From a virus, in IMG/VR virus record IMGVR_UViG_3300027759_006101, positions 294,270 through 358,269 of that record: 64,000 bases of DNA; one strand, 5' to 3'. The notes beneath the pieces were generated by a model. It saw nothing but the letters and a program-made list of their open reading frames with translations. It made no database searches and was not told the origin of the DNA. Numbering within the stretch: position 1 is the first letter of the stretch; every line of letters starts with the position of its first letter. Of this stretch, positions 13,424 to 54,500 are shown piece by piece. The translations under genes were made by a program, and so were the position numbers.

Positions 13424-13915
13424 TCAGTCGGTATCGTCAGACATATAAGTTTCAAAATCCCAGTCTTCATCCAACTCATCCATATTGTCCCATACATTTC
13501 GTAAAACAAATAAATTTGTATGGGATAATATGGATAAAATTAAACTATCAACAAGAGAACAAACAGAAAAATAATTATTTTTCTTATAATCAGTGAATTT
13601 TACAGATGCATATATGACATCTCCTACTCTGTTCTCTATACAAATACTTTCAACACTTGAATTATAATGATTCAGTAAACGCAAAAACATTTGATGTATG
13701 ATCATAACGTGAGCGTTTAAGTGATAATCCTTAATAACAAAATTCAACAAACTAGCTTCGTACGGAGCAATCTCACAGGCCACTTTTTTCAACCCATCAC
13801 TCAGTAATATAAAAACTCTGGTTTCAGAGTCTACTATTACTTTTTCTAAAAGGATAGGAATAGTTTCATAACGATCATCATTGTGAATATTATTTCTATC
13901 TATTTTTTTTGGCAT
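13424..13915 (-). CDS. Divergent bifunctional nuclease (BFN/DUF151) domain protein
   Basis: Encodes 163 residues. From about residue 27 to 145 it follows the DUF151 layout: a strand V-I-V-D-x-E-T-R-V-F-I-L-L, then I-A-P-Y-E-A-S-L-L in place of the usual 'I-x-I-G-x-x-E-A-x-x-I', I-H-Q-M-F-L-R-L-L in place of 'T-H-D-L', then I-x-I-E-N-x-x-G-D-V-I-Y-A-S-V, and finally S-L-V-D-S-L-I-L-S-I in place of 'R-P-S-D-A-I-A-L-A'. The order and spacing fit, but the conserved Arg and Thr-His are changed, so nuclease activity is doubtful. The C-terminus is acidic. The start overlaps the end of the MerC-like gene by 16 bases, so it belongs to the dnaK-merC operon. Known members are nucleases or regulatory proteins in bacteria and plants; its phage role is unknown. 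Confidence 0.58.
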   Translation of the reverse strand: MPKKIDRNNIHNDDRYETIPILLEKVIVDSETRVFILLSDGLKKVACEIAPYEASLLNFVIKDYHLNAHVMIIHQMFLRLLNHYNSSVESICIENRVGDVIYASVKFTDYKKNNYFSVCSLVDSLILSILSHTNLFVLRNVWDNMDELDEDWDFETYMSDDTD

Positions 13916-14301
13916 TTTGAATTTCCTGTATTACACACTCTGCAAAGTTTGCAAATTTTATTGTTTAATATATTTGAAAATATAAGCATCAATGAACCAA
14001 TAATCATTAAGTAATTTATTTCTTTATGATCGGAATGCTTGTGTTCATTTAAAAAATAACCTGCAAATGTTATGATAATTCCTAAAGAGAAAAACCATAA
14101 TATATTGTAATTTTTGTGAGTTTTGATTCCAAAGCAAACATTATAAATATTTATTGCGCAAGATATAAATAATAAAATAAATTCTATTTTTGAATCAAGC
14201 ATCAAGTAAAGAGCTGAAGTAGGCAAAAATATCATAAATAAAGGTAATATCGTGCAGTGCAAAACACAAACAATACTAGCTATATTTGCGAATTTTATCA
14301 T
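13900..14301 (-). CDS. MerC-family membrane protein
   Basis: Encodes 133 residues with four predicted membrane segments (about 5-25, 38-55, 66-83, 95-113). The first segment carries C12-V-L-H15-C16 followed by a Pro-Leu-rich stretch, the signature of MerC-domain proteins (S-x-x-C-x-x-H-C-x-x-x-P-L). A His-rich loop (H-K-H-S-D-H-K near residues 87-93) and a cysteine cluster C-K-L-C-R-V-C after the last helix also match the family's C-terminal pattern. MerC proteins carry or bind Hg(II) or other soft metals at the inner membrane. The start overlaps the dnaK stop by 4 bases (ATGA) and the end overlaps the next gene. A metal-related role in a phage is unexpected; redox or membrane function is an alternative. 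Confidence 0.75.
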   Translation of the reverse strand: MIKFANIASIVCVLHCTILPLFMIFLPTSALYLMLDSKIEFILLFISCAINIYNVCFGIKTHKNYNILWFFSLGIIITFAGYFLNEHKHSDHKEINYLMIIGSLMLIFSNILNNKICKLCRVCNTGNSKCQKK

Positions 14302-16008: not shown

Positions 16009-16362
16009 TTATTCAGGTTCTTCTGGTAATACAGTTCCTCCAGGCACATATCCTTCCATCAATTCTTTGAGAGCATCTTTATTTTCAAGCTTTTTTCTAA
16101 ACTCAAGACTTTCATTTTTTGTTATTGGCCCTATCGCTATATTTTTATCTTTGTCTTTTGGTAAATTGTCTTTATACTCGTGAGCCATTGACATTAATTG
16201 TATTATTGCAAAAGTATCTTTACATTTTGAACAACGCATAATAGCGTAAACTTCTACTTCTGACTTAGGCAACCAACCCAAGTGAGATAATTTTGTAAAT
16301 TGAGTTTTACAATTTCTATTAAGACAACACTTCGGTTTGCCGATGATAGTTTGATGGAACAT
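16009..16362 (-). CDS. Small zinc-ribbon-like protein of unknown function
   Basis: Encodes 117 residues from the ATG at 16362. The start is decided by a strong GGAGG 8 bases upstream; a TTG six codons earlier lies before that site and is rejected. Cysteines at the N-terminal side (C-C-L-N-R-N-C) and in the middle (C-S-K-C) form two candidate metal-binding pairs separated by about 25-30 residues, as in zinc ribbons. The C-terminal half is charged and helical, ending E-E-P-E. It sits 16 bases before dnaK and is probably co-transcribed with it. A transcription-related or DNA-binding role is possible for zinc ribbons, but no specific family is recognised. Confidence 0.7.
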   Translation of the reverse strand: MFHQTIIGKPKCCLNRNCKTQFTKLSHLGWLPKSEVEVYAIMRCSKCKDTFAIIQLMSMAHEYKDNLPKDKDKNIAIGPITKNESLEFRKKLENKDALKELMEGYVPGGTVLPEEPE

Positions 16363-16440
16363 AGCACACCTCCAATGCACAAATGAGCAATTTAATATTC
16401 CTGTTAGAACAAAGCTTGACTTTTATTAAGAACCATTAAT

Positions 16441-16469
16441 AGGACAAAATAAACTTGATATTGTATACT
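16441..16469 (+). promoter_or_regulatory. Candidate promoter of a small plus-strand transcription unit
   Basis: AGGACA at 16441-16446 (four matches to the -35 consensus) and TATACT at 16464-16469 (five matches to the -10) with the ideal 17-base spacer. The predicted start near 16476 falls one base before a perfect hairpin. It points to the plus strand within a minus-strand gene block. Confidence 0.5.
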
Positions 16470-16476
16470 ATTATAG

Positions 16477-16506
16477 TCCACTGGCGGATAAATTGAGGCC
16501 AGTGGA
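16477..16506 (+). promoter_or_regulatory. 5'-end hairpin (inverted repeat) of the small transcript
   Basis: TCCACTGGC (16477-16485) and GCCAGTGGA (16498-16506) form a perfect 9-bp, GC-rich stem with a 12-base loop, striking in this AT-rich region. It begins where transcription is predicted to start, so it could protect the 5' end of the RNA. It could also be a protein-binding palindrome. A T-rich stretch follows, so weak attenuation cannot be excluded. Confidence 0.65.
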
Positions 16507-16533
16507 TATTTTTATGTAAGGAGGAAAATGATT

Positions 16534-16605
16534 ATGAAGATTTTTGAACAACTTGAAGAAATGATGAATCAAGTAATTTCAGCATTATTCAACGTAGAAT
16601 TGTAA
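16534..16605 (+). CDS. Short peptide gene (23 residues) in a mini transcription unit
   Basis: A full Shine-Dalgarno AAGGAGG (16518-16524) precedes two in-frame ATGs. The ATG at 16534 has a 9-base spacing and gives a 23-residue peptide; the ATG at 16528 (spacing 3) would add two residues. The peptide (M-K-I-F-E-Q-L-E-E-M-M-N-Q then V-I-S-A-L-F-N-V-E-L) can form an amphipathic helix. A promoter and hairpin precede it, and an intrinsic terminator follows 9 bases after the stop. It is opposite in strand to the flanking helicase and zinc-ribbon genes. Function unknown; a membrane-active or regulatory peptide, or a structured RNA with incidental ORF, are all possible. Confidence 0.52.
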   Translation: MKIFEQLEEMMNQVISALFNVEL

Positions 16606-16613
16606 GGTAACTT

Positions 16614-16640
16614 ATAATCTACAGCGTCGTAGATTATTTT
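16614..16640 (+). terminator. Rho-independent terminator of the small plus-strand unit
   Basis: ATAATCTAC (16614-16622) and GTAGATTAT (16629-16637) form a 9-bp perfect stem with a 6-base loop followed by TTT (four T residues from 16637). On the plus strand it lies just after the short peptide's stop. Its right part overlaps the last codon and stop of the minus-strand helicase gene; the minus-strand side lacks a T run. Confidence 0.68.
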
Positions 16641-18400
16641 AATTCAAACATTTTCCAAGCTCGTTCATTCTTATAAACTTTCTTTCTCATATTTACGTGA
16701 GATCTCAAATTCTTATGACTTGAGGCAAAATCAATAATAATAGCTTCAGGTTTTCCATTCTTTATAGAATCTTCAACATCTTTGCCTACACATCTTAAGA
16801 CTCTTCCAACTTGCTGATAAGTTGTGACTGGTGATGAACTAGTCCCAGCAAGAATTAGACAAGAGATTTTAGGAGCATCAACACCAACATTTGCCCACTG
16901 TGTTGCAATCAAGACTATTTCATTATTCTCAACTGCATTAAGCATTCTTCGACGATAATTCTTTTCCTCATCGCTTGGGTCTATTTCGCCTTTATCGCCA
17001 CCAGGTACAAATACTGCGTCCTCTATCATTCCTTCAAGAATATTGCCGTGTTCCATCCTTTCAACAAGAATAAGAGTAGGAGTACCCTTTTTTTTCATAG
17101 CTTCGGCAAATTGTTTTATTCTAAAATTTCTTTCCCAGCAATTAACAATATTTAAATTGTAAACTTCATGATAAGTTTGGCCAGGTTCTACAGTATCTAT
17201 ATTTACTACAAAGATTTTGGGTGGAACTAAGTACCCTCTCTCCACGAGATCACTGGCACTTACTTCGCATACTTTACCGCCCAAAGTACCTTCTATCCTG
17301 ATTTCTTGATTATCGGTACGAAAGGGAGTTGCAGATAAACCCAATCTGTAATATGCATTCTTTGCTTGATTACCAATTTCTTCAGTAACAACAGCTGCTA
17401 AATGTGCTTCGTCTATAATCAAAGCATTACAGTTCTTGATTACATCTCTGACTTGAGATTTTTGAAATAATATATTCTGCCTATTGTCCCAAGCTGATTG
17501 AGCTTTCTTATAATCTGACAATTCTTTTTTTACTAAGATTGACAATTCACGATCATACTGTTTTCGTAATTGAATTAAGTTTTTTGCAGAACTTTCTTCA
17601 GCTTTTTCAACTTTCTCATACAAGTCTGAAAGTTTTCCTGAAGCCACATGAGTTGCTTTTTTGTAGTTTGATAGAGCTACTTCTAATTCTTTTTGAAGAA
17701 AAGCAGTTGGTTTACTTCCTTCCCCATTATCGTCAACAATTTTGCTGTTTGTTTCAACATATTTTCTATCAAAAGCTATCAAAGCTGTCTGATATGTAAT
17801 GACGTTGATGCCTTCCATATTTAAGTCGCATAATCCGCCACCGGCAATTCCAACTTTGACTTGATTGCCATTGAACCTTAAATACTTTTCAAATTCTTTT
17901 TGCGTCTGTTTTAATAATTCAATTGCTGGGACTATAAATACAACTGGCTTGACTTTCAATTTTTGAAAGATATAACATGAAGTCATAGTTTTACCAGCAC
18001 CAGTAGCTAAAGCAAGCATTCCTCGTTGATTTTTCAAGGCTAAATCGCCTGAAAAAACTTGATAATCTCTAAGTTCTTTACCCATAAAATCACAAGTCAG
18101 CTCGTAATCTCTTGTAGGCTTGACTCTTTTGTCAATAAATTTATAATTTATTTTCAATTCATCAAAAAGTTTAGCTACACGCATAGTAAGGCCAGTAGGA
18201 AAAGATTGATTCCGCTTTACATAAAGAGAAATTTTCCCATCCCATTGTCCAGTCTTAAACTTTGCAGACCATTCTGAATCAGGAACTTTGTAGGACAACT
18301 CATTCCTCAAAGCTTCTTGAATTGGGTATGATAATTTACCAAAACTATCGTCAGTGTTAATTAGCACACTACGGTCATTGTAAACTTCAATCTCAACCAT
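16634..18400 (-). CDS. uvsW: SF2 helicase, UvsW-like
   Basis: Encodes 588 residues. After an N-terminal domain of about 100 residues resembling the T4 UvsW cap, the helicase core has Q-x-x-G-M-L-A-L-A-T-G-A-G-K-T (Walker A, K137), D330-E-A-H, G-L-S-A-T-P-F (S356-A-T), an A-T-Q-W-A-N-V-G-V-D-A-P motif near 499-510 and Q-Q-V-G-R-V-L-R at 529-536. UvsW unwinds branched DNA and promotes recombination-dependent replication. Between the first core strands and the DEAH box lies an 80-residue charged coiled-coil insertion (about 232-310) not usual in UvsW. There is no Shine-Dalgarno; an extended -10 (TGGTATACT) ends 7 bases before the ATG, hinting at a leaderless mRNA. It follows a strong terminator, so it starts a new transcript. 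Confidence 0.88.
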   Translation of the reverse strand: MVEIEVYNDRSVLINTDDSFGKLSYPIQEALRNELSYKVPDSEWSAKFKTGQWDGKISLYVKRNQSFPTGLTMRVAKLFDELKINYKFIDKRVKPTRDYELTCDFMGKELRDYQVFSGDLALKNQRGMLALATGAGKTMTSCYIFQKLKVKPVVFIVPAIELLKQTQKEFEKYLRFNGNQVKVGIAGGGLCDLNMEGINVITYQTALIAFDRKYVETNSKIVDDNGEGSKPTAFLQKELEVALSNYKKATHVASGKLSDLYEKVEKAEESSAKNLIQLRKQYDRELSILVKKELSDYKKAQSAWDNRQNILFQKSQVRDVIKNCNALIIDEAHLAAVVTEEIGNQAKNAYYRLGLSATPFRTDNQEIRIEGTLGGKVCEVSASDLVERGYLVPPKIFVVNIDTVEPGQTYHEVYNLNIVNCWERNFRIKQFAEAMKKKGTPTLILVERMEHGNILEGMIEDAVFVPGGDKGEIDPSDEEKNYRRRMLNAVENNEIVLIATQWANVGVDAPKISCLILAGTSSSPVTTYQQVGRVLRCVGKDVEDSIKNGKPEAIIIDFASSHKNLRSHVNMRKKVYKNERAWKMFELK

Positions 18401-18421: not shown

Positions 18422-18457
18422 AAAACAACCATTTTGTTGCTGCCAACAAAATGGTTG
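18422..18457 (-). terminator. Strong Rho-independent terminator ending the tail/protease/dnaJ operon
   Basis: A perfect 14-bp inverted repeat, CAACCATTTTGTTG (18426-18439) and CAACAAAATGGTTG (18444-18457), with a 4-base loop. On the minus strand it is followed by TTTTC. It lies 20 bases after the stop of the membrane-anchored small protein gene, and a new promoter follows. Confidence 0.88.
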
Positions 18458-51521: not shown

Positions 51522-54500
51522 TTATTGTGCAGACTGCTCAGTTGGATACACTGTCAGAACGTCAGGATTTGGATACCCTCCAGTTCTGACAAATGTAAAA
51601 GTATTAGTTGATGGTTTAGCAGATGAAGCAATCAGCAATGAATGAAATCCTCCAGCAGAAATATCAGTTGGATTTGCAATATCGACAACCGAAGATATTT
51701 CACCGGGAAATCTTCCATTTTTTGAGTTTTCAGATAAAGTATCTTTATAACTTGATGCAAAGCCTAATTCACCATCTAAATTAACACCCCAAGGCCAATA
51801 ATAATTTTCTGACAAAGCCAAATATCCGAAGTTACTCACAGATATTTTTTGAAAAGTTTCTGCTTTAGGATCGCCTGGTAAAAAGTTTTGGTTTTCTGCT
51901 GCTGTCCCAGGACTTATCAAGAAAGCTGGAATTTCATTTGCGTTTGTGAATCCATAGAAGTATATTGCTCTGTTGAAATAAGGGTCAGTATCAGCCAATA
52001 ATACTCCAATCCTGTTCTCATATGTTGATATATCATACGCATAACCCCATCCTCTCAAATTAGTTTTTCCAGCAAACCAAACAATTTGGTTGTCCGGATC
52101 GAATGCGATACCAGTAACATAGCCTATAAAATCGTTTGGGCTAGTTGGATCGAAAAATCCTATTTCTATTTTGAACGGCATCATAGGAGTTGTCAAAAAT
52201 AAATCAGGGTTTTGTCGGACATCAATACCAATAAATCCAATTTCATTTACAAATCCAGTTGAAGAATAATTATGTTTTCCGGCAACCCATACTTTTTTAT
52301 TATCAGCAAAAGCAGTAATATGTTGGCAGGTTGAAACATCTAAAAGTGCATCATTGTTTGAAAAATTAAGAGGACTATTAGATAAATTTCTTTCTAGAAT
52401 TGATTTAAATCCATATATGTTACTCTTAGGTAATGCTTGCCCGAAAGTCCCCAAATTATTATCGCCACAAACTAGCAAGACTTTTTTATTCAATACAGTA
52501 TCTTCAACAATAATTGCTGAAGTTCTATCTCCTGCTGATACTTTGACTACCTTGAATTTAGAATTTAATGGAATTTTTGTCAAAACATTTACTTTGCTTA
52601 TATTGCTCGGCAAACCCAATTGTCCATAAGTATTGTCGCCACTTCCATATAGTGTGCCAAGATCATCAACTGCAAATGAATGTTTCAATCCTGATTCAAT
52701 TATGACGTACTTTTTAGTATCATCTACTAACTCGTAACCATATCTGTTAGGTTCATAAGCTCCACTTGCAATTGCTCCATTAATTGACTGTCCAGTAGTA
52801 AACAACTTGTTTGCATCAACTTTGGGAACTGGAGAAACATTTACTGGCACATTTAATCTTCTACCTAAATTTGTCAGCAATGAAGATTTTAAATTCTGAG
52901 TGTCTGCTACTACTAATGAAACAAGGAACAACCCTACTGTATTAAATGAGTAAGATAATTGTGAAGCAGTTCTAACTAAAACACCATCTAAATACCACTC
53001 AAAAGTGATGTTATTTAAGTCTTCTGGATCATAAGAAAGTAAGCCATCAAACGTATAAGTATCTCCTACTTTAAGCTCAATATTACCTGATAATTCTGGC
53101 TCATTGCTTATCACAGCAATAGGGTTTTTATTTGGTGGTGGAGGTGGAGGAGTTCTAACAACAAATATTGTTTTATTTACTGGAATACTTTCTAATCCAA
53201 AATTGTCAAACACACTTAATGTCACAGTATGATTGCCTGTACTTGTGAAAATAAAAGAAATTTCTGGTGTGTTTAAATTTTGATTAATTCCATCCACTAA
53301 CCATTTGTAACCACTTATGAATTGATTAATATCAGAATCGTTACTACCATCCGATGTAAATGTGACGCTTGTATTAATTTCAACTTGTGTAATACCTGGA
53401 GGTACTGTATTCAAGACTGCAATTGGCTGATTGTTTCTAACTATATAACTTAATGTTTCAGTGCTTGATCCATCTTGATTGTCTATGACTTTTAGTGAAA
53501 CATTGTAAGTACCAGGCTGTGTGTATCTTGTTACAGCAATTTGTTCAAAAGAAGTCTGTCCATTACCAAAATCCCAGTAATAAGCTAATGGACCACCTAT
53601 ATTGTCAGGATCATAACTGCCTGCTCCTGAAAAAGTAACATCTAATGGTGCAAAACTTGTATTTGACACAGGGTTAGCTGTTATTCGAGCAACTGGAGGC
53701 TGATTAGGAGGATTTACCTTGACAGCAACAGTTACAGTATTGCTCCAAAAACCATCATTATCCCTTACTCTATGAGAAACTGTGTATGGTACAAATCTTG
53801 GCGTATTAAACGTGTAAATGAAAGATTTTGTAGTTATTGGGGTAATTTGCAAACCAGATATTGTCCACTCATAATCAGATATACTTCCATCTAAATCAAA
53901 CGCTAGTGAATCGAAAATGACTGTGAATGGAGCAAATCCTGTAATTACTTTATTTACGTCTGTCGGATTTGTAGAAATAACTGCCACAGGTATTCTGTTG
54001 CTGACAAAAATGTTTTTTGTAATGGAATTTGATAAATTGAATTTATCATAAACTGTCAATGTAACTGAATAAGTTTTATTGCCGAAAGCATACTGGTGTT
54101 GTGGAGATTTTTTGTTAGCATCAGAAGTTACAAAACTATTTTGATCTCCAAAATTCCACTCCCATCTTACTAAATCATTTTCTGGATCAGTAGATGAATC
54201 TATAAAATTAATTGTTTGTAATGTTTGTGGATTTGTAGGGTTGAATGAAAAATTTGCGCTTGGAGGTTGATTTATAATTGTGATTTGCTGATTACTTGGT
54301 AAACTTCTTCCATTTCTATTATCAGTGACTACCAAACTTGCATTATAAATACCAACACTTTTGTAAATATGAGATATGTTTGCTGGATTCACAAATGAAG
54401 TTGTATTTCCATCTCCAAAATCTATTTCGTAAAAAGTGATAAACCCATCTGGATCTTTTGAACTTGCAACATCAAAATTAAACAAATCATTTACTAAGCC

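Follow-up and report, generated by a model that had tools for sequence, protein, structure and literature searches.

A putative stand-alone micro-gene for a 23-residue amphipathic peptide with a terminator-like 5'-hairpin in a group of giant phages

We report a complete, stand-alone coding micro-gene with functional RNA hairpins in a giant phage genome, a reading to which we assign a probability of about 85%, excluding the inferred steps of its mechanism. Ten versions of the locus could be compared. The changes in the short open reading frame (ORF) are mainly synonymous, a single whole codon accounts for its only indel, and compensatory changes are found in both flanking hairpins; therefore, as judged from this comparison, the locus is a protein-coding micro-gene and not only a structured RNA. 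The product is most likely an acidic, amphipathic helical peptide, and the hairpin at the 5'-end most likely attenuates transcription, protects the mRNA, or does both. The initial annotation had proposed a hidden transcription unit with a small amphipathic peptide. To this proposal, the present analysis adds conservation, purifying selection, and covarying hairpins, and transcription and translation are predicted.

The window, i.e. the whole stretch of DNA that was analyzed, comprises the final 64 kb of a virus record of 358,269 bases. The record represents the genome of a giant phage and includes genes for DnaK and DnaJ, gyrase-like genes, and very long genes that look structural, and phages of this group are uncultured and known here from metagenomes alone. 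The micro-gene unit is located on the plus strand in a gap of 271 nt (16363-16633) between two minus-strand genes, which were used as syntenic markers. Convergent with the unit is the gene for a 588-aa UvsW-like DNA helicase (16634-18400; Pfam domains ResIII, Helicase_C, and UvsW_N). Divergent from it is the gene for a 117-aa putative zinc-ribbon protein with paired cysteines (16012-16362), which has its start codon ATG at 16362, preceded by GGAGGTG, and for which a Pfam search yielded no match. Two further features of the minus strand were recorded in passing. A 14-bp terminator-like hairpin with a T-tract (18426-18457) lies between the stop codon of the preceding gene and the start of the helicase gene, and another terminator-like stem was noted just before a start region. 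In addition, a MerC-like membrane protein (13900-14301; Pfam E 1.2e-18) is encoded directly downstream of a phage DnaK gene and is an unusual cargo gene.

All elements that had been named for the unit are present at the stated positions. In the order of the plus strand, these are AGGACA (16441-16446), a 17-nt spacer, TATACT (16464-16469), a front hairpin with arms at 16477-16485 and 16498-16506 (9/9 pairs, 12-nt loop), AAGGAGG (16518-16524), ATG codons at 16528 and 16534, a stop codon (16603-16605), and a second hairpin with arms at 16614-16622 and 16629-16637 (9/9 pairs). Among 3,000 dinucleotide-shuffled versions of the gap, three contained two separate 9-bp hairpins and one contained an AAGGAGG-led ORF with an ATG start and 16 or more codons, and the combination of the hairpin pair with the AAGGAGG-led ORF was never found. 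The observed unit is far beyond chance, as had been supposed for this series of expression signals. No other AAGGAGG-led mini-ORF of this kind was found on either strand of the 64-kb window, and the one weaker mini-ORF, at 53706, is AGGAGG-led and has a TTG start.

IMG/VR searches with the helicase, the zinc-ribbon protein, and the peptide all returned one group of contigs, and the 12 related contigs matched by the zinc-ribbon protein all belong to it. Twelve IMG/VR contigs cover the gap and, together with the window, represent ten distinct versions; the helicases of these relatives are 67-86% identical to that of the window. In all ten versions, the unit is found in the same place and orientation between the helicase and zinc-ribbon genes, and the order of -10 box, 5'-hairpin with U-tract, Shine-Dalgarno (SD) motif, ORF of 23-24 codons, and 3'-hairpin is kept. 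Relatives lacking both hairpins and carrying a frame-shifted ORF had been named as evidence that would speak against the unit; all ten versions retain both hairpins and an open frame. At the nucleotide level, the region had no match in the phage collection, and no relatives were found in 50,697 phage records or in GTDB contigs. Because the GTDB genome contigs, searched with the zinc-ribbon or the helicase alignment, gave no relative, no host was assigned. Degenerate peptide patterns, one for each subfamily, gave no matches outside this group of contigs. Searches of the same 358-kb genome yielded no paralogue of the peptide or the front hairpin, and the weaker covariance-model matches in it turned out to be ordinary gene-end terminators or other hairpins. 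An exact 16-mer of the front hairpin was found in viral contigs beyond the relatives only in unrelated contexts devoid of an SD motif or ORF. The background for such leaders across the genome was derived from these pattern and model searches alone.

A separate group of hairpins was observed outside the window in the same record (G000:C1:154264-180816, partly in loci L071-L076). Seventeen palindromic hairpins of the type GGNNNGGT-N4-ACCNNNCC, counted with up to two mismatches to GGWATGGTNNNNACCATWCC, are clustered within 27 kb; none were found elsewhere in the record, and a reversed-pattern control yielded 1 rather than 17. Their arms vary with compensation (GGAATGGT/ACCATTCC, GGTACGGT/ACCGTACC, GGTCTGGT/ACCAGACC, and GGTGTGGT/ACCACACC), and possible tRNA-like sequences, judged by eye, lie nearby. 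The cluster resembles a repeated element of structured RNA or DNA.

The ORF of the micro-gene (MKIFEQLEEMMNQVISALFNVEL plus stop codon) extends from 16534 to 16605 and contains 23-24 codons in all ten versions. The SD motif is located 9 nt before the second ATG, and a G-rich SD motif is found in the same place in all versions. The first ATG, from which a peptide of 25 residues had been considered in the initial annotation, is only 3 nt away from the SD motif and is missing in 6 of the 10 versions, namely L005 and all five distant versions (L038, L039, L040, L042, and L045); therefore, the second ATG is the predicted start and the peptide has 23 residues. The peptide versions are M(K/R)IFEQ(L/I)EEMMNQVISALF(N/R)VEL, MKIFEQIEEMMNQVISALFKMQM, MRNLLQEFENMMTEMISLIFKVEL, MKSFFTQLENMMTEVINVIFKLEL, and MNILKDIEKLFDTIFVTLFKA(EF/DY). 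Pairwise pN/pS values, each calculated from only about 11 synonymous sites, range from 0.04 to 0.65. They are 0.04-0.4 in the close group and in most pairs, including values of 0.04-0.07 in several close pairs, and the highest value, that of the window and L040, is driven by the last four codons. For L042 and L045, pN/pS is 0.05 and 8 of the 10 differences are at third codon positions. The numbers of variable sites at the three codon positions are 2, 2, and 8 for five close sequences and 1, 1, and 8 for the L042/L045 pair. The sole length difference of the ORF is one whole codon (L038 and L039), which keeps the frame, and the lengths of the leaders vary freely. Taken together, a reading frame under purifying selection is combined with a ribosome-binding site, as is characteristic of a stand-alone gene for a small phage protein.

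The phage genome contains at least three sigma-like ORFs above the family cut-off, and an RNA polymerase beta domain was not detected in it; therefore, the unit is presumably transcribed by the host polymerase. The -10 box, TATACT in the window, reads TATAAT in most distant relatives and predicts a transcription start at about 16475-16477. TATA(C/A)T or TAAAAT is found 8-13 nt before the CC of the hairpin in all ten versions, and the G preceding the box is invariant. AGGACA had been assigned as the -35 box, but it is not conserved, being AGGATA in L006, AGGAGA in L008, and absent in L038-L045. By consensus, the promoter is weak, and the sigma-70-like match (9 of 12 bases) is unremarkable alone, with 6 matches in 1.2 kb versus 5.2 expected. 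Upstream of the -10 box, the plus strand carries an 18-bp dyad, TATTAAG-N4-CTTAATA (16424-16441), which is imperfect in the window, forms a perfect inverted repeat of 7-8 bp in the four close relatives, and is absent from the more distant relatives. In the close group, 20 of 23 columns across 16421-16443 are invariant, compared with 4 of 18 in the adjacent 18-nt spacer. The dyad is centered about 43 nt before the expected start, and a fair guess would be a regulator-binding site for a candidate activator or repressor, which could also serve the divergent zinc-ribbon gene. It occurs as a single copy in each of five records and was thus rejected as a regulon marker. Upstream of the zinc-ribbon gene, the minus strand also contains a GGAATAANAAATT-like motif (16380-16420) that is conserved in several relatives and is possibly a phage-specific promoter.

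The front hairpin, TCCACTGGC / GCCAGTGGA followed directly by UAUUUUU (16476-16513), is a candidate for a terminator-like attenuator and/or a 5'-protector of the mRNA. In all ten versions, only a few nucleotides separate its first base from the transcription start predicted by the -10 box. Its core of eight pairs is paired in 100% of the cells, and three of the pairs show compensatory changes (U-A/A-U, A-U/G-C, and G-C/A-U). The covariation score is 0.451 versus 0.220 after shuffling, and the signal is abolished when the partners are slid. Eleven cells are changed on both sides, versus 4.3 after shuffling and a value reached by none of 500 shuffles, in a set of ten sequences that are few and related, such that the counts contain shared ancestry. 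The loop keeps the pattern H-G-G-(A)-U-A in its 5'-half, whereas its remainder differs between versions in both length and sequence. Directly adjoining the stem, the U-tract reaches as many as seven U in distant versions. The stem itself is longer in L005 and L006, at 14 pairs, and even there the U-tract starts at its base. Hence, a stable stem directly followed by a U-tract, the geometry of a terminator, is present in all ten versions. Terminator strength was scored with the d'Aubenton-Carafa discriminant, using provisional coefficients and a threshold of 0. The discriminant is positive in eight versions and is -7.7 in L008 and in the window, which falls just below the threshold because an A interrupts its U-tract. 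For comparison, three terminators of this genome, located at gene ends or between genes, score 16-27, and the front hairpins above the threshold are in the range of the terminators of this phage. A strict scan for terminator-type sites on both strands of the 64-kb window retrieved only three sites, one of which was the front hairpin.

Promoter-proximal intrinsic terminators act as attenuators, e.g., at pyrG of B. subtilis, and have been suggested to do so in S. agalactiae (PMC4448216). The unit shares with the pyrG type a terminator-like hairpin near the transcription start and upstream of the coding region. Unlike the pyrG type, it lacks a G-run for reiterative transcription at the predicted start site, and its stem leaves no space on the 5'-side for a competing antiterminator. 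Indeed, a competing stem was not seen at the front hairpin, the 5'-arm of which begins at the predicted 5'-end of the transcript, and relief of termination would need a factor acting in trans. Alternatively, the peptide gene may be real and the hairpin may do nothing but protect the 5'-end of the mRNA, with the U-tract as a ribosome-friendly spacer and without any attenuation, an explanation to which we give somewhat less than even odds. The leader of T7 gene 10 combines a 5'-hairpin protector, a U-rich spacer, and a strong SD motif. The L040 leader (UUUUUUUACGUUAAGAAGG) resembles it, which we take to count in favor of protection alone. Like the ompA, papA, and aprE leaders, and the T7 leader, the unit has a U-rich spacer and a strong SD motif, and its hairpin is predicted to lie at the very 5'-end; the differences are that its U-tract directly adjoins the stem, an arrangement typical of intrinsic terminators, and that its loop is partly conserved. 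The predicted position of the hairpin at the transcription start also fits such a role, as 5'-terminal stem-loops, including those of the ompA, papA, and aprE leaders, are known to stabilize mRNAs in E. coli and B. subtilis (PMC3997798). However, a protector needs no U-tract, which is kept at the stem base in all versions, even below the 14-pair stems; the discriminant exceeds the threshold in eight versions; and the conserved loop GG(A)UA would be without obvious reason. The two roles are not mutually exclusive, and the placement of the U-tract makes us lean slightly toward attenuation.

The peptide is amphipathic as a helix, with at most 2% of shuffles reaching the observed moment in each of the seven sequences tested. 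Hydrophobic residues occupy positions 3, 4, 7, 10/11, 14/15, 18/19, 21, and 23. The peptide versions tested have a net charge of -1 to -3 and a mean hydrophobicity of 0.14-0.25. No significant match was found in Pfam and PHROGs, tblastn with E up to 10 retrieved nothing from the 50,697 phage records, and a PDB sequence search with the peptide gave nothing significant. Two variants of the peptide were weakly and locally similar to PHROGs of unknown function, phrog_38713 and phrog_6429 (E 0.067 and 0.094); these matches are not significant, involve different families for different variants, and concern profiles longer than the peptide. The unit resembles a combination of small phage proteins acting on host proteins, 5'-stabilizing hairpins, and promoter-proximal attenuators, but it matched no family tested (Pfam, PHROGs, and Rfam); it therefore adds a new family of peptides to a kind of gene that is already known. 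Small phage proteins of less than 100 aa that act on host proteins include lambda Orf73/TraR, Aqs1, and T7 Gp0.4 and Gp4.5 (PMC11323111). The peptide is similar to these in being a tiny phage-encoded product that probably acts by binding to a larger protein. In contrast, its length of 23-24 residues is far below that of the examples with stated length (73 and 69 aa), it matches no family searched, and it is encoded in a predicted, inverted transcription unit of its own.

Instead of binding a protein, the peptide could be membrane-active (holin-like, exclusion, or delta-lysin-like), and its strong amphipathicity and length of 23-24 residues would be consistent with this. We regard this as unlikely, as the peptide is acidic or near-neutral and has few basic residues for anionic lipids; the acidity in particular speaks against a lytic membrane peptide. 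Far less probable is a type I toxin gene, encoding a small toxic peptide from an mRNA controlled by an antisense RNA, although the size, the own promoter, and the structured mRNA fit loosely. A sigma-70-type scan of 16232-17036 gave no minus-strand promoter match for an antisense RNA over the unit. Moreover, the peptide, negatively charged and amphipathic rather than uniformly hydrophobic, differs from membrane toxins and is not the hydrophobic membrane-spanning peptide of type I toxin-antitoxin systems.

The rear hairpin (ATAATCTAC/GTAGATTAT; 16614-16637, plus strand) is located between the two convergent genes and is a conserved, covarying stem of 7-9 bp, with two compensatory pairs and 100% pairing. 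The initial annotation had taken it for the terminator. However, it is AT-rich, has a stability of about -7 kcal/mol or weaker, and is followed by a poor U-tract, and on the plus strand its discriminant is -11 to -40, below the threshold in all ten versions, in contrast to the front hairpin. Thus, it does not qualify as an intrinsic terminator of the plus strand, and the roles of the two hairpins look swapped relative to their first labels. On the minus strand, the discriminant is positive in L039 and L045. The rear hairpin probably marks the boundary between the two convergent transcripts. In the close group, the last codons of the ORF and the stop codon (GTAGAATTGTAAG) can form a 12-bp stem with its 5'-arm (16590-16637), which has a GNRA-type loop and competes with the rear hairpin; a similar stem is possible in L038. 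If real, it would couple translation to 3'-end formation. The pairing was not seen in L039, L040, L042, and L045, and no reading was built on it.

The initial annotation had left room for a structured RNA of about 165 nt as the product. In a wider form of this alternative, the RNA could be structured or a small regulator, and the ORF would be incidental. The strong folding (z = -4.5 for 16474-16650), the covariation of both hairpins, and the orientation of the unit against its neighbors would agree with this alternative. Selection, however, acts on codons, as indicated by the third-position bias, the low pN/pS, the codon-sized indel, and the conserved SD motif and stop codon, and this pattern largely refutes a purely structured RNA. 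Furthermore, no Rfam family was matched (best E 1.8, 11 bits versus 50 needed), and the predicted fold outside the two hairpins differs between relatives; a long-range pairing of the SD motif with the 3'-end, present in the first fold, was dropped as it is not kept in relatives. We consider this alternative very improbable, marginally more so than a toxin gene. A leader peptide that controls a downstream gene via attenuation would fit a short ORF beside hairpins, but it is refuted by the gene order, as no plus-strand gene follows and the next gene is convergent in all versions.

For the preferred reading, a stand-alone peptide gene with an attenuating and/or protective 5'-hairpin, the following course of events is proposed. 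Using a sigma factor of host or phage origin, the RNA polymerase of the host would start at about 16476, possibly under the influence of a dyad-binding regulator in the close group. The first approximately 30 nt would fold at once into the hairpin, followed by the U-tract. Part of the transcription would stop there and yield an RNA of about 39 nt, and the remainder would yield an mRNA of about 166 nt, the 5'-end of which would be sealed by the same hairpin. Efficient translation from AAGGAGG, with initiation at 16534, would produce a peptide that folds as an acidic amphipathic helix and most likely packs its hydrophobic face against a partner, which would be a protein of the host or the phage, with a membrane surface as the less likely option. 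The boundary between the convergent transcripts would be formed by the rear hairpin. Tentatively, and with a probability well below even odds, the front hairpin could be a brake at the start site: a terminator-like hairpin with H-G-G-(A)-U-A as a recognition loop, which a phage or host factor would have to overcome before the 23-residue effector is made, with the short RNA and the peptide mRNA as two products.

Genes of 23 codons fall below the length limit of most gene finders. The locus offers an unusually complete comparative case for a real micro-gene, one that the searched family libraries do not contain. It may serve as a test case for the minimum size of a phage gene that is conserved and expressed independently, and also for the question of whether termination at the transcription start can act as a switch. 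The peptide could be obtained by chemical synthesis for binding tests and is a candidate for a host-takeover factor.
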